This document shows positions 372 to 61,284 of a DNA stretch of 64,000 nucleotides, one piece after another. A program made the position numbers and the translations under genes. The notes beneath the pieces are model-generated. The model saw only the letters and a list, made by a program, of their open reading frames with translations. It did not search any database and had not been told where the DNA came from. Position 1 is the stretch's first letter, and every line of letters begins with the position of its first letter. This DNA is from Crossaster papposus (Eukaryota; Echinodermata; Asteroidea; Velatida; Solasteridae): positions 868,001-932,000 of the forward strand of contig JBAIAA010000078.1 of the NCBI GenBank assembly GCA_037893245.1, read 5' to 3'.

Positions 372-2447
372 GGGAGGAAAGAAAAATGCCGTTCAGACGA
401 AACGGGGAAAACATATACACGTCACGGTATTATTGTCAGGTCAGAAAACAAGAATAGGTGGCTGTTCACAGGTTGCAAACAAAATGTGAATTAACTTGTC
501 CGGTTAGTTGGCGGTAGTATTTTGTAAAAGCTGTTTCCGAAACGGTTGGCCGAAACATCGTTGAAAGAATTAATGGTACATTTCTTGAAATTGGCAGCAT
601 AAAATTATATAATCGGCACAATGATTTCTCAAAATGCCTTATTAGACTATTAATTACTTAACTCAAGTAAGTCATTTCAATAATTTGGTAGTTTCATTTG
701 TTCATGTCGGCATTTGTTTTATACGTTACAAAGGTTTGATTTATTCATCAATCGCACTACATACTGCGAGTCCACGGCCCAATCGAGCCAGCATTGTACT
801 ACCGTTAACTATTAACATTTGGAATCGCCACTTGTATTTTTGACTTGATCGGATCTGAGTAACAGTAACAGTTCGCCAACATACTTTCAACACTTACACT
901 CAGCTGCTCCTGTCCTCATTTATGCCCTGATTTACAACATTTTCCTCTCCTTTTTGTTTTCGCTCTGGTGATACACATGTTCGTGCACTTACAATTAAGA
1001 TTATCGTGATAATAGTCTAAGCCCGTTTACCTCAAGCGTAATCACATACAAACAGCTCCCGGTGCAAATTCCCTAAACACCACGGCATTTCGGATGATTT
1101 CATTGATTTATTTTCATCTGGATGAGGGTGTGTTTTATCATGAAGAAATAAGAACGTTCTTATTACTCCATGGTTTTATACAGTACTTCTTGCACAATGT
1201 CCTTGGGTTTGTATAGAGAGAAAACAAGCTAAGTTTTATTTTCATTAAGTTTTGAGAAATCGGCAGGAAAAGCCGGGGCTCAGTAATCGGAAGGCAAAAG
1301 CCAAACACGATCACGTAGTGGCTTGGTATCGTAACCTAAACGGGAAACCCAGAGGGAAATTATTCCATTGAGGCCTGTTTACGAGTGATATAAATAATAT
1401 AAATGATTATATGGGCTTAATGCACACTTACTCCTACCGACGACAAGAAAGGGAGTGTAGGGAGTTACTATCGACGCCGTCTTGCCTGACTGGCGACTGC
1501 AATGGATTTGGGTAAAGTGCACCTCAGATGCAAAAAGATTTGAGACCATATTCACGACGACGCCATTTTTGATCGTGCTCCCTGAATCCATTTTATAAAT
1601 TGTAAACTGTTGAATGCGATGGTACCAGACTATTGTGCGTTTAAGCCTCGCTTTCACGGTGTTTTTTGTTAATGTGGTTTACATTAAATATTAAAGACGT
1701 TTTAATTCCCAAACTGAATACCTCGCTTTTAATATGGCCGACTCATTAATAAAGTATATTTAACAAGTTCGTCAAACCCTCCTGGTATCCGTGTATCATG
1801 AACAAAAAAAGGCGTCTGTGAAACCAGCGAAATTGTATGCTACCCCCTGCTTTCAGTAATTGTCTGTCGCCCTCTAAGCTTTTGACCAATGTTACAATAA
1901 TGCCTTGGCTCATGATCAAATTTGAGCAAAATCTAAATATTGTTGGCTGCAATACCACTTGAAACCAAATGTTCAACACTTTGTTTTAATATTTTCCTCA
2001 TTTAAGGGCAACAGATAACATTTGTTTCTGTCTAAGTTTAATGAACAAACAAAAACAAATTTTACAATTACATTTCGCAAAAGCAAAAAGTATAAAAAAC
2101 ATTTAACAAGCTATTTGGGACGTTAGTTACATTTATTATTAGAACTCCTTGTACGAAACATCGACAAGACAAGAATAATAAGAAGGAAGGGTATCGCTAA
2201 GACAAACAAACTAGTGGCACAATTCAATCGGTAAAAAGCAACAAATCTCTTGCCGATTTGGCTTACATTTTACCATGACATAGTGAAGACTTGTTTAAAC
2301 ATACTTGAAAGTTTAGGGCGATAGGCAATTTCTGAAAGGGATATTGTCCTCAACACAAAGTGTTGTTGTTGTTGTTGCTGTTTTTGTATTTATTTATATT
2401 TTATTTTATAATTTTTTTTTATTTTATAATTTTTTTTATTTTTATAT
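372..2447. other. Unassigned AT-rich DNA
   Basis: No open frame with recognisable similarity, no RNA gene and no clear repeat. Around 2360-2450 it becomes low complexity: a TGT-trinucleotide run followed by T/A-rich stretches. Confidence 0.5.
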
Positions 2448-2448
2448 T

Positions 2449-2567
2449 TGTGTCAAACCAATAATATTTGTAATTTTTGAACAATATATTAGTCAATTTG
2501 ACCAATATTGTACTTAAAATGACCAAAATGATTGGTCAAAAATGACCAATATCATTGGTTAGACACA
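2449..2567. mobile_element. Small palindromic MITE-like element
   Basis: The termini TGTGTCAAACCAATAATATT and AATATCATTGGTTAGACACA pair as inverted repeats. The interior holds repeated TGACCAAT/ATTGGTCA motifs in both orientations. It is non-coding and about 119 bp long. Confidence 0.6.
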
Positions 2568-2847
2568 TTTCTACCAATCTTGGTTGTTTTATTTGTATAG
2601 AGTGTGGTGTTAAACACCCTGTATTATGATACAATAGCTGTAATTTAAAGGAATATCAATTTTAGTAAAGATATTTTCATGTTGCTGACTTTTTTAAGAT
2701 AATTATTTGTTTACATACCCCATTTGCCGCCTGCCTTGAGATGCGCGTATACGACGAATAATCAAGGTGAAGTGTCGCTTGTGTGTACAGTTCATTATAA
2801 TAAAGTAGCAAAGTGTGGCGTCGGTTTTTATTGTAATGGCTCTATAC

Positions 2848-3500
2848 ATTGACTAATCGACTGAAACGTCCATTGCAAAAGCACAAGGAAATGGTTGAGT
2901 AACTATTGGCAACAGACAGAAGATACCGTGTGTTGACTTCAGTATGCTATACGCCACTTGACTAACGACGCGTTATTGACACCGCATCGATCAAAACGAT
3001 TCTAATAAAAATGCCCCAATTATTGTCTTGCAGTGAAACGTGGGGATGCGGCTTGATGAATTATTGGACACGTAGGAGTTTTTCCCCCTTTGAGTAGTTT
3101 GTGCAAGTCGCAGAGCGTCTTTTTCCTATTGACTTTAAAATCATGATGGCGTAAGTAATTAATAAATTGAAAGGAAATAATACAACTGGTAAAGACGTAT
3201 TTTAGTTAAGGCATGACGTGCCATTGTACTCGAGATGACACGATTTTAAGAAACAAGGGGCCGCTTGTTGTGGTAACAGAACAGTGTCATTCTTTTGTGT
3301 TGCAAACTGTAGGTGCTCAGTTATTGACGTATACACAAGCCATAAAAATATGCAGCAAAGATAGAGAGCAAACTTTGCTGGATCAGATTACCAATGTCAA
3401 TACGTCATCTTCTGTCTGTTGCCAAGGCAATTGGCTACACAAAAGTTACTCAACCATATCCCTGTGTTTTTGCAATGGACGTTATAGTCGACTAGTCAAT
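2848..3500. mobile_element. Foldback element with about 90-bp arms
   Basis: The segment 2848-2924 (CGACTGAAACGTCCATTGCA, then GGTTGAGTAACT and GGCAACAGACAGAAGAT) is repeated in inverse orientation at 3407-3500, with a short length difference. The roughly 480-bp interior has no recognisable gene. The 98-codon frame across the right arm (3213-3509) has no similarity that I recognise. Confidence 0.65.
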
Positions 3501-3510
3501 GTCAATTAAC

Positions 3511-4189
3511 GTCACACGTTGGTACGTTGTAAGCCAGTTCGGTTTTCCAATTGCGCATTTGCACAGCAAGATTCCACGACTTTTCTCTCGGGATAAACGC
3601 GGCAGATAAATACACACAGGGCTACAGGGGAACCGAATCTGCATTTGGTGATTGTTTTTGTTGAAACTTTTATTCAAACAAAAGTTTGGACAGACAAAAA
3701 CGACACTAGAAAACACTTCGCTTTCAAAACGTTTTTTGTTGTTGCTGTTTTTTTAAATTTGCTTTTACTCGCTATGCTTTTGCACGCATACGATGAAATT
3801 CCCCTGCCGCCCCCCCCCCCCCCCCCCCTCAAAAAAAAATATTTATAAATAAAATAAAAATGGTTAAGTTTTGATATGCACATGCGCAGTTAGAATACCG
3901 ATCTGGCTTATTCAACTAAACACGAACGCGCCAAAAGTGAAGTCGTAATTAACAAATTCGTTTAGTACAACACGTATCGTTTCTGAACACGACCGACACA
4001 CGGGAAGTGTATTTGACTGGCAAGGTGGAAATAATTGAACACGTCGAGGAATTCATATAATTATTAGTGCGTGGCGTTTCAAATGGTAGTTGAAAAACAT
4101 ATCATGGCGTATAGTGATTGCAGCCAATTTAACCACCGCGCCATTCTAATTCGTGCGAAATCAAATGCTGTTGATAACTGCCAGACAGT
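3511..4189. other. Unassigned DNA with a poly-C/poly-A tract
   Basis: Contains a C homopolymer of about 18 followed by TC and a run of A at 3811-3838. The short frames on both strands across this tract exist because homopolymers lack stops. No gene seen. Confidence 0.5.
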
Positions 4190-4741
4190 TAAAAACGAAC
4201 GCCGTTTTTGTTGGCTTTTTCCTGGCATCCATGACTGTAAAACTTCGAACATGCCAGTTAAAGGGATCGTACACGTTTGGTAATTAGAACATTGTTTGTT
4301 TCAATCCTATATAGTTATAGATATATACCATAAAACTAACCTGTAAAAATTTCATTTCAAAAGGTGGTAGCGATTTTGAGATGTTGCCGAAAATCTGGAG
4401 CGGTTGTGTCCACGCCGGAAAAAATAATCTGCATTGAATACACAGTCTGAGAAACGTCACTGCAGTAACGCTTCTCAGATTCAATTTTTTGGGGATAAAA
4501 AGTGATATCTCTTTCCATAACCGCAGTACTTCGAAGTGAAAAGTTTCAGAAAATGCATTATACTACCAAAGCTGCTGTACTTCTTACCATGTTCTTACCA
4601 AGTAAGTTTGTATTGCCATTAATTTTTGGAGTAATTACCAAACGTATACGATCCCTTTAAACAATATTCACTATAAATTACAACTCCAAAAATCCACCCA
4701 TTAATGATAGTTCAAGCAATTACCAATGGTGTAAACGACTT
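4190..4741. mobile_element. TTAA-MITE family A copy, interrupted
   Basis: The flanks 4190-4261 (GGCATCCATGACTGTAAAAC, then TTCGAACATGCCAGTTAA) and 4657-4741 (ending CCAATGGTGTAAACGACTTT before TTAA) match, in order, the right half of the family A copy at 12299-12683. The match is broken exactly at an internal TTAA by the element at 4262-4656. The left half of this copy is not recognisable. Confidence 0.75.
4262..4656. mobile_element. TTAA-flanked MITE nested in a family A copy
   Basis: The ends are AGGGATCGTACACGTTTGG and CCAAACGTATACGATCCCT, near-perfect inverted repeats. Both sides are flanked by TTAA (4258-4261 and 4657-4660). The empty version of this TTAA exists in the related element near 12587 (CTCAGTTAAACCGACG). 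TTAA duplication is known for piggyBac and Kolobok transposons; assignment to either is inference. Non-coding, 395 bp. Confidence 0.85.
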
Positions 4742-4745
4742 TTAA

Positions 4746-5857
4746 CTGTGCTCATTTACATGGGCAACCGAGGTTGCATTGAGGCTGACAACAGCTTCAA
4801 AAGCCAAGACAAATTCCCAGATATAATTATAAATAAAATAAATGTTTGACGGTCTATAAAACACGTCTGTAATATACATTTTTATGGGCTATATAGTACT
4901 TCAATATAGTGTTCGTCAATAGCCTAACCATTTTGCGTGTAATGCATATCATTTGGAGTTGGGATGTACCCAATTTGTCTTCCTTTGTGAACAGAGCTTT
5001 AATTGTATTTCTACAAAACGCACAATTTTCATATAGCAGCAACGGGAAACGGCATCCTAATTTATTTAGTTAAACGAAAACAATCACTAAAGCAGGCTTA
5101 GAACCCCATGGTTAAAACTTTGCTTCAGTAAATTGTTTGTCTAACTTTTTATAACGAAGGAAATTTACAGCTTTGGGGAGAAATACCAGTAAAATGTGTT
5201 CATGACGATTACCACTGGACCACCGAGCTTTCTGGGTTTGGGTGACTGGTTCGAATCTGATACAGCAGCGGGTACCACATTGTGAAATTGTATGATACCG
5301 AACATCCATATATCTAATAGATTTTAGTAACAATTTTGTCCCTTTGGGGCACAACGAATTAGTGACGCCGACAACAACGATACTGGCACTACTTTACTAA
5401 TTGAGTTTGGGAACGAGATGGACTTCTGAAGCTCTCATGAACGGGTTGGTGTGTACGGTCCACGGGTGAGAGGAGGAGACGCTAGACCGCGTGGCGGTGA
5501 ACCAGATCGTGTTGGTAACGCAATACTTCATCTCTCTAGGGAAACTGCACAGTAAGCGACGGTACGTATAGATAGACACAATGAAGGTGGTGCCAGCACG
5601 TAACGTGTTGGCATGAGGGGGCTACTAGGCTCGCGTCGCTATAGCGTCCCGTCCTCACGTAAAGTCAATAGATTCATGACGAGACTTCAGCCGTCGCTGA
5701 CTGCGTTCTTGTCAACATTTTGGACCATTCAAATAATTATGTGGACAGAAAAGTAAGAATGTCACATACGCTCTAACAGCGTATCCATGCTTGAAAATGA
5801 ATTGAAACGATCAATAAGAATTCAATTTCTGTACTTCCGAACGAATTTATACGAACT
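4746..5857. other. Unassigned DNA
   Basis: No recognised gene or repeat family. A weak tRNA B-box-like stretch (CTGGTTCGAATC, about 5239-5250) has no convincing A-box or cloverleaf around it. Short frames on the minus strand have no recognisable domains. Confidence 0.45.
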
Positions 5858-21147: not shown

Positions 21148-21360
21148 AAGGTAGTATAAACCATTTGCAAACTTTAAACAAACTAAACTGCTGATTTTTT
21201 ATATAATACTTTACTTGACTGTTAGTGAATAACAGTCTCAAGCATCCTGTGAAATCACGGCACCTGGTGTGATGTGGTTTTCAAGAATTTCAAATTAGTT
21301 AGTCCACATTTTATTTGCAAAACGGTCACGTATCCGTGAATGGGTAAAAACCAACTAGCC
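21148..21360. mobile_element. TTAA-MITE fragment, family B type
   Basis: Starts after TTAA (21144-21147) with AGGTAGTATAAACCATTTGC, the family A terminus. It then follows the family B interior (ACAGTCTCAAGCATCCTG, GTGTGATGTGGTTTTCAAG) shared with 7539-7630. The far end merges into the next element and cannot be fixed. Confidence 0.55.
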
Positions 21361-21900
21361 TGGTTTCCTAAGCCGATTACAAAAAAAAGACGTGTTTCCG
21401 ATGCTCAAACGGGCTAAAATATTGAACAATCGTAGGGTGACCCCCAGATACTCGGCCGACATCGGAGGGTAAAACACACCTCGGTGGGGGCATCGGAAGA
21501 ACCTAACGCGGAGTTAAATTATTCCGATGACTTGGTAATCGGGAGTTCATCTGAATCAAATCCTACACATTATTGGCCGATGCCTGTTTGATAATCCTTC
21601 ATATCGGTCATCGGTGATTTTGTGGTAGACTTATCTACAGGCCCGAAGGGGATCGCACGATATCTGACGATGACCGGCCGATGTCCCTCCGGCACCCCGT
21701 CCCAAATTGTCCACCTTTATCGACCCATTGTCGTCCGATCATTTTCCGATTATCTTCCGAATATCGCCCGAGGCTCTGTCGAGTCCCGAAAAGAACTTGA
21801 CCACTACAACGATGACCGACGGATTTTCACCGGCCCTGTGACATCTTAGAACCCCACCGATCTGTAGATATCCTCCGGCGGCTCGTTTAAATGTGACTGA
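21361..21900. mobile_element. CCGAT/ATCGG motif-array element
   Basis: About 540 bp in which short variants of CCGAT, CGATG and their complements recur every 10-40 bp in both orientations (for example CATCGGAGGG, CATCGGTGATT, GACCGGCCGATGTC, GTCCGATCATTTTCCGAT). Looks like the interior of a non-autonomous DNA element. Termini are not resolved. The 75-codon frame inside (21622-21849) is not a gene. Confidence 0.5.
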
Positions 21901-22140
21901 GGTAAGCTGGGGGTTGGAAAACGGCCCAAGGTTTAGCTTTCACGTATAATATCAACCAATCAGCAGCTTTGTTAAGATTTTAGCCCCAAATGACGTCACA
22001 CAGAAATGAACATGCCCCCACATATCAGATATTGGTTAGGATATGGCTCGGTTAACCAAGGTATTGTGATACTCATACTAATATACGATTATTATAATTA
22101 TTCCATGTGCAAGATTAGACATATTAAGCAAGGCATGTGA

Positions 22141-22400
22141 CCCCCCCCCCCCCCCCCCTCCCCCCTCTTTGGTGTTGATTAGTGTGTGTTCCTGGAATCT
22201 CAGTTATTATCTAGAGGGGTATGTTGGGGTAACAATACTCTGGAGTGTGTATAGGGTATAATGGACAATACCCTGTTTTGTGTCGGTCCCTGTGTTCCCG
22301 GAATATCAGGAATTTTCTTTCAGTTATCTAGAAGGGACAATTGTGGGTATAATAATAATAATCTGTAGTGTGTACATTGCATATTGTGGGACAAGGTAGT
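22141..22400 (+). repeat. Poly-C tract plus two 115-bp monomers
   Basis: A C-run (about 22141-22158) is followed by two related units. One is near 22166-22280 (TGTGTTCCTGGAATCTCAG, GGGGTAACAATACTCTGGAG, GTGTATAGGGTAT) and the other at 22281-22400 (TGTGTTCCCGGAATATCAGG, GGGTATAATAATAATAATC, GTGTGTACATTGCATATTG). A third copy lies inside the insertion at 40527-40710. Confidence 0.7.
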
Positions 22401-25004
22401 GGGACATGCATAACCGCGGACATTATGACCAACACGTAACAGTTCATACATTGCAGGATTTTGGACGGTGTATACTGTTTCAGTCATCCTCATTTGAAGT
22501 AAATATAAAGAGGCGCTAGAGCAACCGAAATTTGAGCACCAAGCATATCACGTTGCAACCAAAAAAATACAATGTTTATTTAATTAACCTTGGGCGAGCT
22601 AGGCGTTACAGGTTGGGATCTACCTAGGTACTAGGTAGCCCTGAGATTCCTTTCATGGACACGCGATATTTGGTTATACAGCGACCATATCACTTGGGAA
22701 TAAATGCTAACAGGTTCTTTGGGTCTGGGGAGATGGGGGATGATTGGATTTTGTTTTTAAAGTAGTGGACAATATTTTCTTTCACAAAAAGATATGGAGG
22801 GTCTGATCATACGCTTATACCGTGTGAGAGGGGCTGGAGTTTTCATGTTATTAACATTTGGAAAATGTTACCGGTTGGGAATTTTGCTGGATACGAAACA
22901 GAATGATGAAATCTAAGTTAGATCGGACCACCTGTACAAATGGCAGCTCTAATTTTAACTGGGCAAACAAATATATGATTGCTTTTCTTCTTACTCTAAA
23001 AAACTCGGCCAAATAGGATTTTAGGGATAAGTTGGGTTTATATAGGATCGTTCCTGTTTGAATTAGTACACCGGTTGGTAAACCTAATTTGTAAGAATCG
23101 TACAGGTTTTTGATTTGCACGGTCCTTGCATTACTTGTCGTCGTCTGTGCTGTCAGATACAATGAGGGGTTCTGAGAAAATGTCTGAAAAAGTTCTCAAA
23201 ATAAATAAACAAATCAAATCATCCATGATTCATTATTTTGCAGTTTTTTCCACTATGTCATTTGCCCAATTCCATCTCATTTTGCCAGAACGTTTTCATA
23301 TATGTCACACGTACGCCACATTTCCTCTTTTTTAAAAGAGTTTTACCCTGAATCAGAGCAATATTATTGTTCCCATTATATATTTCGGTTTAGGCAATCG
23401 CAATTTACAAGCCTTGGGCTCCGTGTCCAGCCGCGCCGCGAAGCCCCGTGTCCACAATGAACGACAGAGACGCCCCCACCTGATAAATGTTGACGAAACC
23501 GCCCTGTAGGAGTTCACACCAAGGAAAATTGATGGCGGTGGGAGATTGTTCAAATCAGACAAATTAAATCCGTTTTCCTGTCTTAGATGGAACAGCTCCG
23601 CACGTGTATATACGCGGAAGCTATAGTACTGTTTTTTTCTTTCTGTTTGCGCGCGGAATTTGTGTCCAAGCGGTAATTTCCCGACAATACAATCAGCTCG
23701 TAGACAGGGCGAGATGTTGTGAAGAGAGAACTGTAGGGCTCGAGGCTTGAAGTACTCGGATGAAGATGATCGTTTATCATCGTGGATGAGGAGGGTGAGG
23801 ACATCTGACAATGCCTTCCGGGCAACACATGGACGCCAGAGAGCATCAAGATTAACACGCACACACAAAAACCTTCAGCCTTGTACCTGCTCTGGTGCTG
23901 ACTACTCTGTGATTTATGGAAACCGTCCGTTTCTCTTATTCCGTTTGTTGGGTTTAGATGACTCAGACTATAAATCATGAATCGGTGTTGTGCGATACCA
24001 AACATTACCTAACCCGCTGTTTTCCTCTGTCTTGTGTCTCGTAAACTCCTGAATTTCTTTTAAATTGATTTCCCTCCTGTCTGCCAGTAGCTTTTCCCCC
24101 CTTCTATTTAACCATTACAAACAAACTGTGATCCACTTTTTAACGTGAATTGGCGATGGAATTGTTTTACGAGACTTCCATAATTGTGCATCAGTTACCT
24201 TATATATCTCACAATGTATATGCCACAATTAGCTAACTCTAACGCCTTTTCCCTACATACACGATGTTTGTTATGGTAGAGCACGATTTTTCAAAGTAGA
24301 CAAATCTTAACCCTCAGTCCAGCAACGAGCCTCCAAAGGGTGGACAAAAACTATGTGTTTGTTTATATTTTTATTTTTTTTCAGTCAATGGAGCTGTCCT
24401 TTTTTTTCATCTATCCCTAGACCCTGCTGAATGGACTGGGGAAAAAATTCTAACCCAGGAGGTCATTCAGGGGGTGAAACATCCCTTCAAAATAATGGTT
24501 TTGGCCAAAAGCCATAGAGTTGTGCAAACAAATCGAAATCTGATCCCATTGTGTATAGCCGCTGTCAAAAAAAGTCTCTGACATCTATTTGAGCGGCCTT
24601 GGGGTAGATAACAAACACAGCTGTTATCAATCGTGACCCAGACATCCCCTGGGGGGTAGTTAGAGCTGTTGGTCGTTGTTATTTGTACAGTGTGTATCCT
24701 ATTGCTGTTTCATGTCTGTATTGCGCAATACTGATTTCAATGTTTACATGCTTGCAATGGATGTCCTTAAAAAAATACATAAAATAGCCAGAATGTTTAA
24801 ATCTTTGATATGTGTGTCCAGGGTCCTTATATCCATCTGTTCAAACCATTAGAACAAGATTTGGGCCCCCCCAACACAGTTATTTACCCCCCAACATAAA
24901 ATGCCTACCGATGGATCCCCGTTGTGCACCTCTGAAAATTTTTTTAGTTGGTGCAGCCGAGGGTTAATGTACCCATGATGTACCGTAGCAATTCGCACTC
25001 AAAA
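22401..25004. other. Unassigned DNA; longest open frame unassigned
   Basis: Includes a GC-richer block at about 23380-24000 with the longest open frame of the window, on the minus strand (23353-23868, 171 codons), overlapped by a 140-codon frame (23583-24005). Neither contains a domain that I recognise, and there is no signal or membrane pattern to support them. I cannot decide between a host exon and chance. Confidence 0.3.
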
Positions 25005-25740
25005 GTTCAAGGTCAATCGAATTATACGTCTTGTCAATGCGCTATCAAGACGCCGTCAAGATGTGGTACCGCAGTAGTGCGATAGTACCACGACAGTGTT
25101 ACGAATTATTACGATAGAGTTACGACATCGTCAATATTTGTCACGGCGTACTACAAAATGCCAAGATTGTACTACGACGTCACTACGGCGTCAGTACGAT
25201 TTCGCAAGACGCCAGTACGACGTCATACGAATTAACAAGACGCCTGTACGATTTAATTAATCACATGACAACAAAGGCGCAATGGGTGAATATTTTGATG
25301 TTGTCGTTGTCGTCACGATTCTTCGATCCAGGGAAGGAGTTTTTTTTAGCCCAACAAGTAAAGGCCCCTTTTGCGCGTTTTTCTCAAGTTCGGCTTGGTA
25401 GCGTGTGTCTCAAGTTCGGCATGGCAGCGTGTGTGTTATAACTTTCCTACGATGGAAACAAACAAACAAACAAACAAAACGACCAACAAGAGTCACGTGA
25501 TACAAATTACGTTCTTGGTGGCGTCTTAGTGGCGTCTTGTTCAAGTCGTGCTAAGTCGCAGGATCGTAGTGGCATCGTATCAGCAACATAGCGAAGTCTT
25601 TGCTGTTGTGGCCATTACGAATGAGTACGAATGAGTACGAATGAACAAGACGCCGTCACGACATACCAAGACAACATCACGACAATGTCACCTCAACGTT
25701 ACGACTGTCATACGATGCTGCTGCGGTTGACAATACATTT
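25005..25740. mobile_element. TACGAC/AAGACGCC motif-array element
   Basis: Variants of ACGACGTC, AAGACGCCGTCA and TACGAAT recur throughout. Examples are CAAGACGCCGTCAAG near 25049, AACAAGACGCCTGTACG near 25230, ATGAACAAGACGCCGTCACG near 25641, and inverse forms GGCGTCTTAGTGGCGTCTTG near 25520. A central non-array part (about 25270-25470) includes a CAAA repeat. Non-coding; ends unclear. Confidence 0.5.
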
Positions 25741-25784
25741 TTCGACCACTTCGGTAGAGCAAGATTGATTTTAACATCTTAAAA

Positions 25785-26450
25785 AATCGTGCTCCTCCAC
25801 GGATGCATCACGCTCCACTACGGTGCGCTACGGTGGATCACGATTGACCACGAACGTGTACGACGCCGTTTACGTTTCCTAACGTTTCCTTATGATTCCT
25901 TACGGAAGCGTTGCGATGTGTTAGGTATCAAAAAGAATGTACAGTGATTTCATTACGGAAGCTTAACGGTTCCTTGCGGATACACTGCGGTTCCTTAGTT
26001 TTCTTGCGATCTCTTACGGCGGCGTTGCGGTGCCACAACAGTCCATGCGATTTGTTACGATACATTACGGCGCTGTTACGGAGGCGTTGCGGTGACTGCG
26101 GCGGACCTAGAAAAAAACAAAGCTGTAGCAGTCCGTACTAAACCGTAATAAGCCGCTGTGAATCGGGGATATCCTCAACACCACCGTATTTTCTCCGTAG
26201 GGTTCCGGAAGGAACCCGCACGCAACCGGTACGCAATTGCGAAGGTCCGTAGAGAATCGGGATGTGAACCGTGACGTTACCGTCATGTTCCCGTTACGCA
26301 GCCGTAATAAATCGTAAGAACCGTTTGTACCAACGTAACCACAACATTATCTCCAGGGTGTTCACGATTTTGCTCAAAAATCTCAACGCTGCCGTAGAAA
26401 GAACATCCATGGACGTCCGTAGACGTCCGTAAAAAAAACCACATTTGTTG
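25785..26450. mobile_element. TTACGG/CCGTAA motif-array element
   Basis: The left half carries TTACGG/TTGCGG words (CCTTACGGAAGCGTTGCG, CTTACGGCGGCGTTGCGG, GTTACGGAGGCGTTGCGG). The right half carries the complements (AACCGTAATAAGCCG, GTTACGCAGCCGTAATAA, GTCCGTAGACGTCCGTAA). The orientation switch near 26100 makes the whole element a degenerate palindrome. Confidence 0.55.
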
Positions 26451-27200
26451 GTGTGAGGTGGCCTTTAGCAAACATCGTGTATGTGGGAACGGGGCATAAC
26501 AGGTTAATTATTTGGTAACCCGCTTACGATGTTGACACTTGTTGTTTCAAACGAAAAAACAAACATACAACTGATAATGAAAGAGAACAAACAACGTTTT
26601 TATGAAGCCTAAAACTCAGGTTAGCAACCAATCGGCAAACAATGGCTTCCAGAACGCTCCACTAGTCGGAAGCTCCTGCAATAATCACAGTAATGACGCA
26701 TTTCACCGAGCGGGATTTTGTTTTCTCTCGCGAATGATGTATTTATCTTTTCTTGACATTTCGAAAATCAAATCCCTTTGCACCGCAAATAATAATTGAC
26801 CTGTACACGCGGCTCGTAATGCAAGGACGATTTCAGTAAATCTGTTTTGCCCTTGGCTGGAATTGACGATGTATGTTTATGATTTCCTCGGCCCACAGAG
26901 ATGAGTCCTTTCTCTATGCTCGCCCGAAGTGATCTCCATGCTCGCCCGAGGTGATCTCTCTTTTGTTTTCCTCCTCTGTTTGATTAAAACCCAATCAATA
27001 AAACTCCCCTCTCTTCCCTTCCCGCTGTCTAATTTTTAAGACGAGGAGGGTTTGAAAAGTGGGAGGTTTCCCTGGCAACGTTTTTGCAGCTGCCAACAGA
27101 TTTCGTTATGACTGTTTGTCTCCCTAAAGGGGATCTATGCGGCGCGAAATCACACTCAAAAGGTTATTACTATCAGATGCCTTTGGTCATACTAAATAAT
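26451..27200. promoter_or_regulatory. Unassigned DNA with an X-box-like motif
   Basis: GTTTCCCTGGCAAC (27067-27080) fits the RFX X-box pattern. Nearby are TTGATTAAAACCCAATCAAT (about 26979) and a 23-bp direct repeat ATGCTCGCCCGARGTGATCT at 26917 and 26939. No gene is seen, and the regulatory reading is inference. Confidence 0.2.
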
Positions 27201-27210
27201 AATTGGTGAA

Positions 27211-27229
27211 CGGGGGGGGGGGGGGGGGG
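27211..27229 (+). repeat. Poly-G tract
   Basis: About 19 consecutive G followed by A-rich sequence. It supplies stop-free glycine or proline codons to frames on both strands. Confidence 0.95.
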
Positions 27230-27747
27230 AAATATGAAACTCCGATTCCAAATCTTAGTTTTCTGGTTCTCTTATTCTGGATGATACAGTGGGCCCTTGG
27301 TTTTATTGTAACGCGTTTGTTTATTCTCGGAGTATCTCCGTTGTCAGTTCTTGTTATAATTTCACAGCTCCGAGTTTGCATCTGCGCCATTCAAATTGGA
27401 ATTGAAAAATCTATCTACAACAACTGTCATAACACTACAAACAATTTCAGAGGTTTGGATAGTACAGGCTATGTGACCCACTTTGGTATGTTATTGCTTA
27501 TTTTGTGAGTACGCGTGATAGGTGTGGAGGCAATACCAACCGGCTTTGTTCGCAGGGTTGATGACGTTATTCAAACCCCGTAATCAGTGCCTAGCCCTCA
27601 AGGACACATACAAAACCTCAAACATTGATCTGTAATTTTTGCAAATAACCTTAAATATAATATCAACATTTTCAGAGAATCACAAAAGTTACAACACCAG
27701 GCCGAGGGAGCACAATTATTATTGTTATTATTATTGGTAGTATTCTC

Positions 27748-28014
27748 CAAATGGGCACTTAGGGAGACAATCCCATAGAGATGTACACAAACTAAAAACA
27801 GTCCTAACTTGTTTACCCTAACCCTTTTCTCTAAGATCTTCGAGATTTATGCTATTTAGACCAAAATCTGTCGTTCTAAGACAAAACTAACTCCCAAATA
27901 TTGTTTTTTAGGGTAGCTAGACACTTAGGGAGACACTGAAATGTCTCCCTAAGTGCCACTGTCTCCTTATTACCTAAAAACTTACGCTAATTTGTCTCCC
28001 CAAGTGCCTATTTG
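27748..28014. mobile_element. TIR MITE with GGGAGACA motif
   Basis: 22-bp termini CAAATGGGCACTTAGGGAGACA and its near-exact complement (27993-28014, one or two mismatches). Two further inward-facing copies (CACTTAGGGAGACA and TGTCTCCCTAAGTGCC) lie at about 27924-27960. Non-coding, 267 bp. A related fragment is at 34480-34560. Confidence 0.8.
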
Positions 28015-28320
28015 ACTATTAGTATTATTGGTTTATTAAAAACTGTTAAACATTGCAGCCAAAAAGGCTGAATCGTGTTTAAAATCCATTCGAGTAAAAC
28101 AAAAAATGTAAAAATCCGGCAAAGATTATATACATGTGATAGGCCTACACATTCAAATGTGGATTAAAATAAATATGCTAATTATCTTTCTTCTTTTTTA
28201 TCATAATAATACAAATCGGAAAACCATAGCACACCTTAACAATATTTATAAATATATATACATGCATATAAAAAGTATAAAAATAAAAATATATACATTT
28301 AATTTATTTTAAAATATATG

Positions 28321-29199
28321 ATGCTAGGTTCCAACTGTCGTGCGACCCGTTACGAACGCCACGATTGGCGTTTCGTTGCTGATCGTGGAATTTGTGTTTC
28401 CTTTTCTGAAATTTCACGTTTGGATACGAGTTGATGCGAGTCGATACGTTCTGGTACGATTAGGTGCGCTTGAAGGCGATATAGTCACGATTGGTCAATT
28501 TCAGGTGACACGATCTATCACGATCTGGTCTCCCGTTCAGATACGATCAGATACGTTGTGATAAAATTGTCCCGATTGAGTCCCCGATTGGGTCCCGATC
28601 TGACACGATCAGCGAGATCGGGGTCCCCGATTTGGGACAATCTGGAACGTGGAGATACGTTCCGATCCGATACGTACGTTCCGATACGATCATCACAAAC
28701 CGATGCGCTCTGTTGCGATCAGATATGATTGTGGTCGCGATGTCTTTCACGATCGGGATGGAGAGAGATCACGATTTGAGCCCCGATTGGACCCCGACGG
28801 GTATATATACAGCCCGACTGACCATGGACTTCATTGTTTCTTGAACTTCTACAGAGTGAAAACTACAACCCAAAATCAAATCGCAGCGCATCTCAACAGA
28901 GATGCGCTGTCCAAGGTTGATCCCGATCACCACGATTTGAAAGCACGATTAGATGCGACCTGTCGCGCTTTGTTACGATCCATTACGATCTGATGCGATG
29001 ATCACGACTAAAAGTCAATCGTGTTGATCGTAGACAATTGTTGAACCGTCCAAAAATCTTCTACGATCAACACGATTGCCACGACTGACCTCAAGGTCTG
29101 ATAAGGTCTGATAAGGTCTGATAGGATCACCACGATTACTCTACGATTAAGACTACGATTTCAATCATGGCGCGAATCGTGATAGTGGGAACCTAGCAT
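28321..29199. mobile_element. ACGATC motif-array element with TIRs, 879 bp
   Basis: Ends ATGCTAGGTTCC and GGAACCTAGCAT are perfect inverted repeats. Almost the whole interior is variants of ACGATC, ACGATT and GATCGT. Examples are CACGATCTATCACGATCTGG, ACGTTCCGATACGATCATC, CTACGATCAACACGATTGCC, and the triple tandem AAGGTCTGATAAGGTCTGAT near 29092. No coding capacity; frames at 28340-28993 lack recognisable domains. A non-autonomous DNA transposon is the best reading. Confidence 0.8.
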
Positions 29200-33094: not shown

Positions 33095-33102
33095 GCTACA
33101 GG

Positions 33103-33326
33103 CAGGGATGTAGTCGAGTCCATCACAAGTCCCTGCAAGTCCCTGCAAGTCCATCACAAGTCCTCCAGTTCCAATTCAAATCACAAGCTATTCAAATCAG
33201 CTTTGACAAAAGCATTCCTTTGTCATTGTTCATCCAGTTACTTGTGACTGCCTTTATGAAGGGACTTGTGACTGGCTTCACGAAAGGACTTGTGAAAGGA
33301 CTTGCAGGGACTCGACTACAACCCTG
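33103..33326. mobile_element. hAT-type MITE with 8-bp target duplications
   Basis: 224 bp. Termini CAGGGATGTAGTCGAGTCC and GGGACTCGACTACAACCCTG are inverted repeats. The element is flanked by the identical 8-mer GCTACAGG at 33095-33102 and 33327-33334. CAGGG ends with 8-bp duplications are the hAT-superfamily signature. The interior is made of TCACAAGTCC/GGACTTGTGA and CAAGTCCCTG variants in both orientations. Non-coding. Confidence 0.95.
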
Positions 33327-33334
33327 GCTACAGG

Positions 33335-42377: not shown

Positions 42378-44874
42378 AAGTTGCGCACACTGTAACAAAA
42401 TTGATGTGTAACTTTACAGAAAAACTGCTGGCAACAGAGTTATCATTACTTTATGTTATTTCATTTAACCGTTGATTTGTAAAATGTAACCGCAGACATG
42501 CTTTTGTTATTATTAAAAAATGTTTTAATCGTTAAAAACATACCAATTTATTTGGGCAAAATACAGAGAAACCTTAAAATGCTAAATATCTAATGGCGTC
42601 AATTGTTTCTATTTACAACAATCATTATTTAACTGGTACTTTGTTTTTTACTTTTACAAATATCTGCAAAATTGAAGAAGGCAGGTTCGGCAAAATTACA
42701 TATTTTGCTATTAGTTTTACATGTGTGTATTATATACATTGTATACAGAGTGGCTTCACCATCTGACCCGCTTTGCGAGAGAAAGTGGGGTGCGTAGCCG
42801 CCTCGCCCCATATAGTTAACAGGCGCGGTTTCTCCGCCAACAAGCTGTGCAGGATAGGAAGGCGGGCCATTAAGCGCCCCACCGCCCCGTTTTGCTTTGC
42901 AGGAGCAGCTTCCCTGTCCCATATTTTGTGTACATTTTTTCAAAGCTTTGTAAGCCCGTCAGAAATCATCGTTTTGTTTTCACCAATGTGCATGCGTCTA
43001 CTTTGCATTGTGTATGAGGTGGTCCGATTGGCCCGTGTACATGTGCATGTGCATGTACATCACGTATGAACAACTGTAAACAAGGATATAGCACTAGCAG
43101 GGATAATTATGTACATATACCAAAATGAGTATAACTTTGCAGATTCTGCTTCTTTTAAAAGCTGTACAAGTTATTATCTGTAAGAGTAAAACAAAAAAAC
43201 ATATTTCTGTAATAAAACAAAATTATAATAAAATGTTATACGTAAAAGCCAACAAAATAATAGCTGTTAACAAAACCAATGCTTTAACAGTGAACGTTTC
43301 TCAAAGTACCATTCACTACACTATTCCTGAAGTTTTTTTTAAAGAAAGATTTGTGTTTTTGTATAGATACTTTAGACAGTATATGTGCTATTCTTTGATG
43401 TTGTCATTTCACTTCTGTCATGTACTCGGGAAGTATGACATCACTGTTTTTTTCGTTTTTTTAATAAACAGCGTCTAATTAACTGTCTTGACTCGTTTCC
43501 TTGTTGTCTTTCTTCTCAGTCTCTCTTGCGTCTTCCACTCCTCTGTTGCTTGGCCAACTTCTGTTCTCTCCGTCATTCTTTCTCCTGTGAGTTTTCCTCA
43601 TCCGTTGCCACTTGACATTTGATATTGAGTGGGTGTAAAAAAACAAATAATAACCACCGCAAAGCCAGAGACAATTTCAAGTTGACGACGTATATTTCCC
43701 AGAAACAGTGCAGTATTGTCAGCTACTGTCTTCGTGCCATCTCTAAGACTAATTTCGGTCTAAATTTATCAAAATTTACCCTGTATTTCCCTTGATTCGT
43801 GTAATTGTAAAATTTCTGCTCAGTATAGGTAATATATTGTTTGTAGAAAACTGTTACCTGCGTCATTTTGTAAAGTGATACTAAGCTTGTTAATCACCGA
43901 TATGTAGAATTGATCTAGCGGTGCTTATGTCTTTATCGGGAAGTAGACTTCCAGTACCTCGGGGAGCTAATATCTCACCCTCAAACCATGTTAGCCTAAA
44001 GCTTTATATTTTGTCAGATTATTTCTTTTCTTTTCAGAATGTTTGCAATAAACCCAAACGGTATCCATTCAGGGACGAAGCTAGCTTTGAGCAAAGTGTG
44101 TTGATATTGAGTGTTATGGGTTGCTTGCTAGTAGGTTCCGAATATCCACAATGCTGCAGCCTGGATATTTCAGGTAGACTGCTGTCTAGTTTTCCATCTA
44201 TTATTTTGACCCCATTTAGTGGTGTTTTAACAATAGTCCATGGCTGAACGATATGTGTGGGCGAGTTTTTTTTATTGAAATAGGGGGCATAGAACAATAG
44301 AGGGCAATAGCGTCCCCTGTTTGGAAAATGTCCCCGATTCCGATTCGTGTACAAAAACATATTGGATGTCCCCCCCCCCCCTCCCCACTCCCCCCCCCCC
44401 CCCCCCCCCAAAAAAAAAAAGGGACAATAGGGGATCTCTGATTGGAGTCGTATACTTACTTGTGTGTGTGTGCTCTTGTATCGTATTATTACCGAGGATC
44501 GAAACACAAACGAAAAAAAAGGAATCCTCGAAGGACGGTTTATTTGTCCCAATTCGGTCCTCGATCGTTTGGGTGAGCGCTAGGTAATGGGGTTAGGGTT
44601 ATAGTACATGAATAAAGTAAAACACAATAGGGGATCCTCGGTCGTTATGTGGTTCACAAATAATGTGGTTGGGGGAGGGGTGCGGAGAGGGGGGGGGGGG
44701 GCAACCCCTCTCTAGATTCACCACTGGCATTAACTTTAATTTAATATAGAAAGAATGCATGACGGAAGGTATTCATTATCATTCATCGTTATACCTAGCA
44801 GAAATCTGCCTGACAAAATAGAAGCAAAAACTGTGGTGGGGTCACGCGCACGTGCTTACCGAACGTCCTCTTAT
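42378..44874. other. Unassigned DNA with homopolymer tracts
   Basis: Contains ATGTGCATGTGCATGTACAT near 43038-43060, poly-C/poly-A at about 44370-44420 and poly-G at about 44690-44702. The 172-codon minus frame at 44034-44552 and the opposite proline-rich frame depend on the homopolymers and are not credible. The 117-codon frame at 43125-43478 has no recognisable domain. Confidence 0.4.
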
Positions 44875-45173
44875 GGCCCTGTCACACCAGAACGTTTTCG
44901 GCCAACGCGTGAGTAGCGCGTTAAAAATAGTTGATACGCTGGCAAACGCTGAACTTCCACAGAAAAAGTCAAGTGGAACCGTGATTTCAGCGTGTCCATA
45001 ACGCGTTGATAACGGGTCCATTGCGTTCACCAGCGCGTGAGTAACGCGTTAGTGACGCGCTCGACCACTCATGAACGACTGCCCAGCGCGTGAGTAGCGC
45101 GTTCCAACGCGCGCCAGCGTACTGCAACGACCACATGATTAGTTGTATAAAAAACCGACGCGCTACTACAGTA
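44875..45173 (+). mobile_element. GCGTGAGTA motif-array element, copy 1
   Basis: Starts GGCCCTGTCACACCAGAACG. Its interior repeats AACGCGTGAGTAGCGCGTT (near 44903) and AGCGCGTGAGTARCGCGTT (near 45034 and 45089), with GCGTT/AACGC words between. It stops where copy 2 starts. Non-coding; the matching right terminus is missing. Confidence 0.65.
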
Positions 45174-45174
45174 A

Positions 45175-45532
45175 TGGCCCTGTCACACCATAACGTTTCA
45201 GGCCAACGCATGAGTAACATGTTGGAATTTCGGCAACACGCGGGTAAACGTTGACCAACGCTAGGCCAGCGTTCGCAACACGCTGAGCGCGTTACCCACA
45301 CGCTGGAACACGCTGTCACACGCTAAGACAAAAATACATTTTTCAACATACCTAAACATTTTAGCGTTTGTCAGCGTGTGACTGCACACGCTGGCGGCGC
45401 GCAGGAAGGTCGTTACTCACGCGTCGAACGCGCTAGGCGATCGTTACCAACCCACTACTCACACGCTGGCGACCCGCTGTCGCATTTTTACTATAAATCA
45501 GTGATGCGTTCCTCACACACTGAATACTACCA
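45175..45532 (+). mobile_element. GCGTGAGTA motif-array element, copy 2
   Basis: Starts GGCCCTGTCACACCATAACG in the same orientation as copy 1. The interior holds AACGCATGAGTAACATGTT and a run of ACACGCT/AGCGTGT words. It is cut at about 45532 by the RTE fragment. Frames at 44842-45319 are artefacts of the motif repeats. Confidence 0.65.
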
Positions 45533-46205
45533 CCAGTGCTTTCAAAATCCTCAAAGGTGTCAGACAGGGCGATCCAATTTCTCCCAAACTCTCCCAAACG
45601 TTTTACAGCATCCTTGGAGGATGTATTCAGAAACCTGGATTGGCAATCGAAAGGAATCGCAATAAATGGGGAACATCTGACTCAATTAAGGTTTGCAGAT
45701 GACATAATGCTTGTCAGTCATGATCCCCGGGAGCTGCAGATAATGATTCATGAGTTGAGTGCAGAGAGTAAAAAGACAGGACTCAAAATGAACATCAAGA
45801 AGACCAAAGTAATGATGAGCAACAAGCTACAAGACAATATGGCACGACAATCGAGAAGGTGAATAGCTACATATACCTTGGTAAAAACAACACTCTTGAA
45901 AACAAAACGGCAGGTGAAGTGCGAAGAAGAATACAGTTAGCTTGGGTGAAATTTGGGAAACTCAGCATCATACTCAGAGACGAGGATCTCCCACTCTCCC
46001 TTAAAAGTCAGATCTTCAACCAATGCATAATTCCGGTGCTATCCTACGGGCCAGAAACCTGGGCAACAACTAAGAAATTGGAAAAGAAACTTAGAGTCAC
46101 ATAAAGAGCAATGGAGAGGATTATGGTAGGAGTTACAAGACAGAACAGGGTCAGAAACGAGGACTTACGAAAGAAACCAAATGCCAGGGACATCATACTT
46201 GGGCT
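45533..46205 (+). pseudogene. RTE-clade LINE reverse-transcriptase remnant
   Basis: The broken frames join into the palm and thumb of an RTE-type reverse transcriptase. The pieces in order are GVRQGDPISPKL (from 45556), LEDVFRNLDWQSKGIAINGE, LRFADDIMLVSHDPRELQ (FADD is the catalytic box), KTGLKMNIKKTKVMM, IYLGKNNTLENK, LKSQIFNQCIIPVLSYGPET, and ERIMVGVTRQNRVRNEDLRK. Frameshifts lie between the first and second blocks and before IYLG, and a stop (46102-46104) splits the last two, so it is non-functional. The endonuclease and N-terminal reverse-transcriptase half are absent. It sits within the motif-array element, which it probably interrupted. RTE membership is judged from GVRQGDPISP and the FADD context. 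Confidence 0.92.
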
Positions 46206-53039: not shown

Positions 53040-54735
53040 ATTACGGTAGCCAGTATCCCAGACCAGAGCACCCCCGACACATTATCGAAGCCAGGAGTGG
53101 AACCAACATCTACAAATGGTAAGGGGGCTGCTCAACCCACAAGGCAAGGATCTAAAATAGACATAACAGATGGCATTATCTGCAATCAAAGTTCGGGGGT
53201 TTCTCATTCGCCAATCTTAATGTGAGAAGCCTCATAAACAAATTTGACCATTTTAAGATTGTAATGTCTAGAAATCCATTTGACATCATCGTCTAAATTA
53301 ACGTTTTTGCGACGCCTCAATCTCTGATGATGAGATAACTCTACCAAATTATTTTATTGTCATAAAAGACAGGAACATGCACTGCAAAAACTGTGGTGTT
53401 AAATTGTACACCAATGGTGTAAAATTTGATTATTTCCTGGTGTTTATTTTGGGCAGGGATTTGGGTGTTGAATAACACCAGTTTGAGAATCAAATTTTTT
53501 AACACCAATTTTGGTGTACACCCTGATAGCAAAATTTGCTCGTCATTCTAGCGAAAAGATGTACTGTTTTAACACTATAATTTTGTACATATTAACTGCA
53601 TGGACAAATTACGTAATGAACTATTACCAAGAACTGACTTATTACACATTCATATACAATAATAACCTATTCCTACTGAATACGTACTACACACATAGCC
53701 ATTGCCGTTGTTAGTTTTATACTACGCTTTTTTGTCCACGACGATGTCACAGCTAGTTTTTATGAATAATGTCAAAATTTGAAAACGAATAAAATGTAAC
53801 GCGAATTTTTAACTATGTTTGCACAAAAATCAAAATTCAATCATGGAATCGTTTAAATAATTACATATTATGGTAAAAAAATGAATTTTTGGACTAAATA
53901 CAACAATTTAACATCGACTATTGTTAACATATCGCATAATTCCTTCTCGACCAATCAGAGGGCTTTATTTCACACACGCATGCGCACTAGGTCAAATTTA
54001 ACACCAAAAGTACGTAACACCAGTACTGGATTTGAAACTAATACTTCAAGAATCATTTTACTTCATTTTAACACCAATTTTCATTCCAAAAGATTAAAAA
54101 AACATTGGTGTTAAAATTTTAACACCACAGTTTTTGCAGTGTGGTTGGCGGGGTTGTAATTTACATTCGAGATACCCAAATGTTCTCTCGTCGTGAAGAT
54201 CTCGAAATAGATGTCGAGTCTATAGGTTGAAATTAAGTGTAAACAAAGACAGCCTGTGCTTATCAGTTCTATTTATAGGCCTCCTTCAAGCTCTGTCGAA
54301 TTTATGGGGAAACTGAGTGATATTCTTAATAAGGCCTTATGTTAATGTATATAAATTATTACAAATGGAGTCTTTAATTGTGATGTTTCAGATGAACACG
54401 ATAGTTTTAGTTTCTTCCAAATGGTGCAACTCATGACCCAACACATGTCACTGAATCCAATCAAACTACCACCGATCTCATGTTTAGTTCCCACCCAGAG
54501 CTCATAGAAAGATGGCCGCACTCAGAATTAGTATCAATATTTTGTGTTCCTGTAAATATCCTAGTACGTCTGTAAATATAATGTTTGGATTTTTGTGTAA
54601 ATGTTGTTGTATTTATACGTGGTGTTATTGTATTTAATGATGTATGCAGGGCCCCAATGAAAACCTTTTGTTTAACTGTTTGGGCACACCCTGGGTTGTG
54701 TAAAGAAATGGAATAAATAAATAAATACCTCAAAA
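53040..54735 (+). pseudogene. LINE endonuclease remnant, RT deleted, split by a MITE
   Basis: Translated in order, blocks of an apurinic-type LINE endonuclease appear. These are NLNVRSLINKFDHFK and SRNPFDIIV (53210-53295), DASISDDEITLPNYFIVIKD (53314-53373), then after the MITE VGGVVIYIRDTQMFSRREDL (from about 54142), SIYRPPSSSVEFMGKLSDIL (about 54267-54330), FNCDVSDEHDSFSFF (about 54377-54420) and THVTESNQTTTDLMFSSHPE (about 54442-54503). The order fits the endonuclease of L2/CR1/Jockey-group elements. The reading frame shifts several times and has stops. There is no reverse transcriptase: about 200 bp of 3' UTR-like sequence follows directly, ending GGAATAAATAAATAAATA, so an internal deletion joined the endonuclease to the 3' end. 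The start near 53040 is approximate. Confidence 0.9.
53380..54141. mobile_element. MITE inserted in the LINE endonuclease, 762 bp
   Basis: Termini CACTGCAAAAACTGTGGTGT (53380) and ACACCACAGTTTTTGCAGTG (to 54141) are inverted repeats. The interior has many AACACCA/TGGTGTT copies in both directions. It interrupts the host LINE coding sequence: IVIKDRN lies just before it and VGGVVIYIR just after. The CACTGCAAAA terminus is of a kind often seen in hAT-like MITEs, but I do not see a clean 8-bp duplication. The frames inside are AT-rich and unassigned. Confidence 0.88.

Positions 54736-61252: not shown

Positions 61253-61284
<32 letters not shown>

Follow-up and report, generated by a model that had tools for sequence, protein, structure and literature searches.

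Word arrays of non-autonomous Harbinger elements in the sea star Crossaster papposus and the subterminal regions of their coding relatives

The occurrence of several elements that are each built from degenerate copies of one short word, a different word in each, within a single stretch of DNA of the sea star Crossaster papposus (64,000 nucleotides; assembly GCA_037893245.1, contig JBAIAA010000078.1, positions 868,001 to 932,000; hereafter the window) raises the question of what such arrays are and how they arose. An earlier note on this DNA had taken the elements for transposons of one shared design and had offered the idea that their interiors grew by duplication of transposase-binding sites, each family following its own transposase. 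The open frames of the window are short, the longest being of 181 aa from stop to stop, and copies and coding partners of the elements were searched for in the whole 1.02-Gb assembly of 1841 contigs. Three of the elements, named here A, D and E, belong to the PIF/Harbinger superfamily and are non-autonomous (features of the window are given on its forward strand). We consider it likely, from the comparison of sequences, that the arrays are subterminal arrays of autonomous Harbinger elements, that their words would be sites bound by a protein with a MADF domain, and that they were retained after the coding part was lost.

Coding relatives of elements D, E and A

Element D (28322..29198), which bears the words CACGAT, ACGATC and GATACG in both arms, is a clean internal-deletion derivative of a two-gene Harbinger element lying in the same genome. 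This partner of 5.04 kb (locus L085, extended) carries the terminal inverted repeat (TIR) TGCTACGTTCCCAC at both ends with TTA on either side, and codes for a transposase frame of 500 aa and, on the opposite strand, a second gene. Pieces of its transposase (L085 and L089) match DDE_Tnp_4 (PF13359, cut-off 24.8 bits) with 41.4 and 61.3 bits, and the second protein, encoded on the minus strand of contig C74 (L089, from 2413-3309 onward), matches the Myb/SANT-like domain MADF_DNA_bdg (PF10545, cut-off 22 bits) with 26.3 bits; a search of the PDB with this MADF protein gave nothing credible. We assign D to Harbinger on the strength of its TTA duplications, of a transposase of the DDE_Tnp_4 type and of the MADF gene. 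The left arm of D (28330..28878) is 90.5% identical over 550 bp to positions 631-1171 of the partner (joined coordinate of L085), that is, to the autonomous 5' subterminal array and the start of the transposase frame, and the right arm (28880..29192) is 87.2% identical over 321 bp to positions 5349-5659, the 3' subterminal array. Another copy (L031) matches the partner at 622-1171 (93.5%) and 5347-5666 (95.6%) and misses the intervening 4.18 kb. Counted along the partner in overlapping segments of 300 bp, D-words number 12, 22 and 7 on the left, are absent from every segment between 1201 and 5100, and number 6, 14 and 13 on the right. Since the words stand at both ends of the partner and the gap of L031 falls between them, what appears as the interior of D is two subterminal arrays joined. 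The TIRs of this miniature inverted-repeat transposable element (MITE) match those of its autonomous partner at both ends, and the upstream regions of L084 and L085 start with the D array.

The collection of genome-wide copies, which the earlier note had recommended, showed A, D and F (described below) to be dispersed families and fixed the ends and TTA duplications of D. Among 695 candidates for D, 42 places were scored (that of the window included); 38 of them begin at the first base of the query and all 42 end within its last 7 bases. TTA flanks six of the eight copies read on both sides; L034 has TAA/TTA and the copy of the window TGA/TAA. Directly outside the D partner, positions 1-600 of L085 hold a neighbouring array with another word (ACTACG/ACCGTA), and elsewhere (G000:C589:1890356-1892951) three D copies, placed back to back, alternate in orientation, and a Harbinger transposase match belonging to the 524-aa group lies about 2.3 kb away.

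Element E (44874..45450; words AACGC, ACGCG and ACGCTG) is the 5' arm of a Harbinger element, with TTA on the sole side present followed by TGGCCCTGTCACACC; its right end is not present. Its sequence aligns with the DNA on the 5' side of the Harbinger transposase gene in L079, at 94.6% over 298 bp and 90.9% over 274 bp, and L079 starts with the same left-end TIR and array (PF13359 at 44.3 bits; 41.3 bits in L076). A unit of about 300 bp repeats the TIR-like start, at 44874 and 45174 in the window and at 383 and 685 in L079, an arrangement that looks like the tandem duplication of a terminal unit. This unit is already found in the coding relative, and duplication accounts for only part of the arrays. 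A further candidate partner, L081, was set aside because its E-words belong to a copy of E that is inserted there. Immediately beyond the truncated E of the window, the stretch 45500-46160 reads, by eye, like part of a retrotransposon reverse transcriptase.

The arrays of D at both ends and of E on its 5' side are thus inherited subterminal regions of autonomous elements, about 300-1000 bp per end, and not grown interiors. Growth of the non-autonomous interiors, as the earlier note had proposed, is not supported; duplication accounts for part of the arrays (the unit of E, a 31-bp tandem repeat in element B).

Element A (21357..21904; word CCGAT/ATCGG) is a non-autonomous Harbinger-type element, recognised from its copies, its word excess and its proximity to transposases. 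In the window its left terminus is altered or uncertain, homology to other copies beginning at 21364. A first look gave 45 candidates in the genome, and the copies read have the left end TGCCCCAGTCACATTTCC and the right end TGTGACTG(A/G)GGTA. The target duplication is TAA/TAA in L002 and not clear in other copies; a TTAA duplication, suggested by L011, was rejected as other copies do not keep it. In longer A-type elements one end bears the same CCGAT array, a piece of Harbinger transposase follows some 4 kb further, and the left-end TIR is common to the MITE and the transposase-bearing element. The transposase fragment reaches 25.5 bits with PF13359, and pieces searched for the domain of a second gene gave no Pfam match over cut-off. 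At 19 of 39 merged A places a related transposase is found at a distance of 4-11 kb from the array (criterion 12 kb or less), in all 19 cases on the opposite strand and pointing inward, for a chance of about 0.0008 per place. This comparison used 32 transposase places, namely the first 30 of 151 listed plus two added after being noticed near A; without the two added places and the source of the query, 16 of the 19 pairings remain. The observed/expected ratio of CpG in the A-partner array is 0.99. In L074, dense minisatellite arrays (2600-4750) occupy part of a Harbinger transposase frame akin to that of the A partner and continue after it.

Words and borders of the elements in the window

To what extent the words exceed expectation was assessed by comparing the count of the top k-mer of each element with 300 dinucleotide shuffles and with other windows of equal length from the first 57.6 kb; for B and C, preliminary borders were used (24970-25740 and 25780-26496). 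The predicted enrichment was borne out at k=5 for A (CCGAT, 13), B (TACGA, 16), C (TACGG, 16), D (ACGAT, 23), E (ACGCG, 18) and the hAT-type element described below (AGTCC, 9), none of which was matched by any shuffle or equalled by any of 472-516 windows. For F it was confirmed with the longer word (the 7-mer GGTGTTA, 8 copies, 0/300 shuffles) but not with the 5-mer TAACA, whose 13 copies were matched by 12/300 shuffles and 12/479 windows. The array words are short and degenerate: the 7-mers of A and C are ordinary (16/300 and 28/300 shuffles), and the top 6-mer is equalled in 1/300 shuffles and 7/494 windows for A and in 2/300 shuffles and 42/478 windows for B. The statement that words occur in both orientations describes well the hAT-type element, which mirrors its ends (CAAGTCC 4/0 in the left half and 0/3 in the right), and C, whose halves are mirrored in the window (TACGG 5/2, then 0/7) and less cleanly in a longer copy (L049; 6/3, then 2/8), and in part only D (ACGAT 19/4) and B (TACGA 15/2), where words run largely one way. 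Likewise, the idea that the word extends or resembles the terminal repeat is right for the inner edge of most TIRs, a loosened word (CCGAT, ACGAT, GCGAT or AACG) beginning at base 18-21 on the left of A and B, in E and at either end of the D partner, and around base 33-36 in C; it does not hold for the right end of A, where the first such word comes only at base 147.

The entries at 25005 and 25785 in the earlier note do not stand for two elements side by side; a single element B (24243-26496) is interrupted here by a 660-bp repeat and by C. The left end of B (24243..24308, TIR ..TTCCCTACATACACGATG) and its right end (26464..26496, TIR CATCGTGTATGTGGGAACGGGGCA) were recognised by comparison with copies, with TAA directly outside each, and its body (24976..25870) holds the words TACGA(C/T) and AAGACGCC, as seen in word counts, motif model and copies. 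In copy L046 the same parts follow one another in the same order over about 990 bp without insertions, so that B and C cannot be separate intact neighbours. C (25870..26463; words TTACGG, TACGGA and TTGCGG), inserted in B, is the right-hand part of a longer family; its left border coincides, to within a few bases, with the junction between B and C, and its right end ..GGTGTGAGGTGGCC recurs in 3 of the 19 loci L046-L064. Directly after this right end stands an E-type element in L049 and, in L052, a further type with another word. B and C are probably non-autonomous PIF/Harbinger elements: B because of its TAA duplication and of a TIR that shares, by eye, GTTCCCAC and ACGAT with that of D, and C because its TIR resembles that of E by eye and its words those of L087, a locus whose transposase matches PF13359 with 48.2 bits. 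The 660-bp repeat (24306..24967) lies outside the word-array system and is young, 39 other scored copies being 94-98% identical; eight scored copies on contig C698 share one orientation, and several of them follow one another at intervals of about 2.3 kb, which resembles a tandem array.

The elements listed in the earlier note are of more than one kind: A, D and E, and probably B and C, are Harbinger; of the two remaining elements one has hAT-type features and the other was assigned to no superfamily. The hAT-type element (33103..33326) has the TIR CAGGG..TGTAGTCGAGTCC, ending in CCCTG, between 8-bp duplications GCTACAGG at 33095-33102 and 33327-33334, and a partial copy in L088 is 98.75% identical over 80 bp. 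Subterminal repeats are a feature of hAT elements; the words of this one are, like theirs, mirrored toward both ends, but it shows no relation to A-E. Element F (53380..54141; TIR CACTGCAAAAACTGTGGTGTTAAA) has its words (AACACC) in the outer 150 bp or so of each end alone; among 2025 first-look candidates, 40 places were scored, the window's included, and 36 share both ends. The top words of both elements are without CG. Further on, the window holds long tandem arrays of GACGTCAATATT and TTGACGTCAATA words with periods of 52 to 363 bp (57734-59463), then tandem repeats of 145-147 bp and 175 bp with AAGTCGATCGGATTTACCAAAGTGTCAAAGTC units that continue past its end (59591-64000).

Arrays at other Harbinger loci of the genome

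One complete Harbinger element besides the D partner was read (L073). It encodes a 524-aa transposase (PF13359 at 100 bits, PF04827 at 36.4 bits) between TIRs AGCCTGGATTACATTTG flanked by TTA/TTA, and has word arrays at both ends. Fourteen further transposase places, each with 2 kb upstream, were picked for their open frames from 151 genome matches to the transposase piece of an A-type element, and the 700 bp before the frame were compared with 700-bp tiles of the window. An upstream word excess was found in 11 of the 14, and 10 have an array of their own once L081 is dropped, two of them weak (L080, z 2.5; L088, z 3.0); 4 of 69 window tiles exceed z 3, none with a CG word. For L077, L078 and L087 no TIR was located, and their arrays are known solely as upstream of the frame. 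Merged by transposase identity, the 14 loci form 11 families, seven with an array, three without and one undecided; A and L073 bring the array families to nine.

The arrays do not appear to come from ISL2EU elements. Members of that group have an AT duplication, an HTH_Tnp_4 or THAP domain and a YqaJ gene. Five places taken from the top of the PF13359 list are ISL2EU-like (HTH_Tnp_4 in 5/5, THAP in two, an adjoining YqaJ frame in two), and none of the five has an upstream word array; D, for its part, is flanked by TTA, and the seven Harbinger proteins scanned have DDE_Tnp_4 and neither HTH_Tnp_4 nor THAP. The target-duplication classes of the PIF/Harbinger superfamily have been described (PMC4482050). 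Some of these ISL2EU-like elements keep open frames, THAP with DDE_Tnp_4 in L067 and L071 and DDE_Tnp_4 beside a YqaJ frame in L069 and L070.

A motif model with a CG centre built in and orientation left free found 2.1-5.0 bits of information in the flanks, against 0.8-1.8 in composition-matched nulls; CG is also present in the raw top word of A-E and in the top 6-mer of all ten own-array loci. The density of CG dinucleotides in the modelled arrays is 6-11 per 100 bp. In the case of A (ATCGG), of D (CACGATc) and of E (aACGCGtT), the element of the window and its partner share one motif. That of C (TTACGG) resembles that of L087 (TTACGGATG), and others are TACGat in B, GTACGG in L073, CACGGCG in L077 and CACGcACAA in L086, that of L080 being weak. 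About eight motifs, some near-alike, are thus distributed among the Harbinger-type families of this genome. That the elements are transposons with one word per family, as had been suggested, agrees with copies, partners and motif models alike.

Possible roles of the words and their relation to known systems

What could such arrays do? Both whole elements that we read code for a DDE transposase and a second gene, and in the D partner the latter codes for the MADF protein. This protein would most likely bind the CG-centred word many times along each end, draw the two ends together and recruit the transposase; such many-site loading is proposed because the MADF gene lies inside the element and the words are repeated at its ends alone. 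As the 5' array reaches the transposase gene, the protein probably also affects transcription of the transposase. Many sites per end would supply specificity, a short word recurring by chance across a gigabase genome. Non-autonomous copies would have to keep the array in order to be recognised, so that the array is what remains of them, and the word would differ from family to family because protein and sites change together faster than the transposase. Binding, recruitment, regulation and co-evolution are what we infer from element structure and word distribution.

Several observations weigh against this picture. The search for autonomous partners, proposed in the earlier note, succeeded for A, D and E, which share their words with transposase-coding relatives, but for B neither an autonomous partner nor a relative with the same TIR was found in the genome. 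For C no partner with its TIR was found either, and its word is related to that of L087 (cosine 0.53) while the DNA is unalignable. The A-type element with transposase is decayed, and no right end could be located for it; 3 of the 14 Harbinger loci (L075, L082 and L083) have no upstream array; and the second gene of L073 has no Pfam match, so that the MADF domain is seen in the D partner alone, one such domain being read clearly. The expectation that words track the transposase across families was not borne out: among nine array families, word likeness and transposase identity are hardly correlated (Spearman 0.10, Mantel p 0.30), L081 and the duplicates L076 (of L079), L084 (of L085) and L088 (of L080) having been dropped. 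Adding the three no-array loci raises rho to 0.41 (p 0.004), which is an unfair test of words, and a first correlation (r 0.79 over 78 pairs; 0.60 over the 73 pairs below 70% identity) was discarded for having counted near-duplicate loci and L081. L079 (E) and L080, whose transposase pieces are 77% identical, have words that agree in part (cosine 0.47). This fits reports that the divergence of Myb-like proteins far exceeds that of transposases (PMC9179366).

Word conservation in D is weak; for this it is counted against the binding-site picture, while as a sign of selection on the words it gives weak support. When the sites are taken from the partner, non-CpG cells changed in 36/1760 cases in motifs and in 123/3578 in spacers (p 0.005), non-CpG columns in 25/220 and 77/450 (p 0.052), and differences from partner to MITE number 5/220 in motifs and 31/450 in spacers (p 0.011). 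CpG cells do not differ (28/800 in motifs, 15/463 in spacers), and random CG-holding words outside the sites average 2.4%, for 2.0% in the motif. An earlier version of the test (non-CpG 30/1648 vs 145/3753) was rejected, its sites having been taken from the same copies, with a bias for the motif.

This weakness would suit the view that the arrays are neutral by-products of slippage and segment duplication, decayed to short words and with no binder, and real duplications exist in the 31-bp tandem of B, the 300-bp unit of E with its TIR-like start, and internal repeats of 42 and 65 bp (72-79%) in the D array. Yet many word copies share few bases, as the unexceptional 7-mers of A and C indicate, most of the modelled information falls no more than 3-4 bases from the CG, and longer units that decay neutrally are not expected to leave one CG-centred core per family; we give this explanation little credence. 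It is unlikely, too, that the arrays act mainly as regulatory DNA of the transposase gene, resembling a promoter or CpG island, bound by host factors and without a direct role in transposition. The 5' array does end where the transposase gene starts, and CpG observed/expected is 1.1-1.7 in the ten own-array loci vs 0.98 in the window, but arrays are also found at the end far from the transposase start (on the right in the D partner, on the left in L073), MITEs without a gene still keep them, and a word that varies by family is unexpected from one host factor. That the words are self-complementary sequence, acting through foldback or as a small-RNA source rather than as protein sites, seems to us very improbable: D contains a 31-nt inverted repeat (29016-29078, 87% complementary, 1 nt between arms), and words are mirrored in C and in the hAT-type element, but the predominantly one-way words of D and B disfavour pairing.

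Returning to MADF-bound subterminal arrays, it is tempting to go further and to imagine private address codes for many Harbinger families of this genome. Each family's MADF protein would read its own CG-centred word, present by the dozen at either end and in the promoter of the transposase; word and reader would switch much faster than the transposase, families would thereby avoid cross-mobilisation, and, the CG being obligatory, CpG methylation by the host would gate binding, transposition and transcription together. We hold this extension as tentative and rather doubtful.

Part of this picture is already known: subterminal sites of a second protein, divergence between families, and MITEs as deletion derivatives. 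Transposition of PIF/Harbinger elements is reported to need both proteins, and DNA binding has been shown for the Myb-like protein of Harbinger3_DR from zebrafish (PMC9710019; also PMC2836001, PMC4055405), whose recognition site is a subterminal motif of 9 bp (PMC9710019). As the demonstrated binder in this superfamily is thus a second protein of Myb/MADF type and not the transposase (PMC9710019), the idea of transposase-binding sites is weakened. The elements described here resemble PIF/Harbingers of this type in their DDE_Tnp_4 transposase, separate Myb/MADF gene, TIRs, TTA/TAA duplications and MITEs (PMC9710019, PMC4055405), and differ from Harbinger3_DR in their long, dense subterminal arrays with about eight motifs across the families of one genome. 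In CACTA elements (En/Spm, Tam1, Tgm), direct and inverted subterminal motifs are bound by a second, TNPA-type protein, the variation of motifs between families is thought to parallel the diversity of binding proteins, and methylation of the GC-rich motifs has been suggested to hinder TNPA-like binding (PMC2613891). The Harbinger arrays recall these in their repeated short end motifs that vary with the family, and differ in superfamily, CG core and DNA-binding domain; the CG core recalls the suggestion on methylation made for CACTA, which for Harbinger is only a proposal. Galileo, of the P superfamily, has long TIRs with several THAP sites proposed to lend specificity to a short word, but three described sites per end, unlike these arrays, and a THAP domain within the transposase itself (PMC3688188). 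No description of long, dense, CG-centred arrays at Harbinger ends, with about eight words per genome, was found in the open-licence literature searched.

The puzzling MITEs built of words are explained in this way, and their partners become findable by word and terminal repeat. With D, a candidate reader gene is supplied in the same element as its sites, and the natural arrays of the different families would offer material for measuring how MADF specificity changes. Finally, the co-residence in one genome of Harbinger families with similar transposases and different words makes the avoidance of cross-mobilisation testable.

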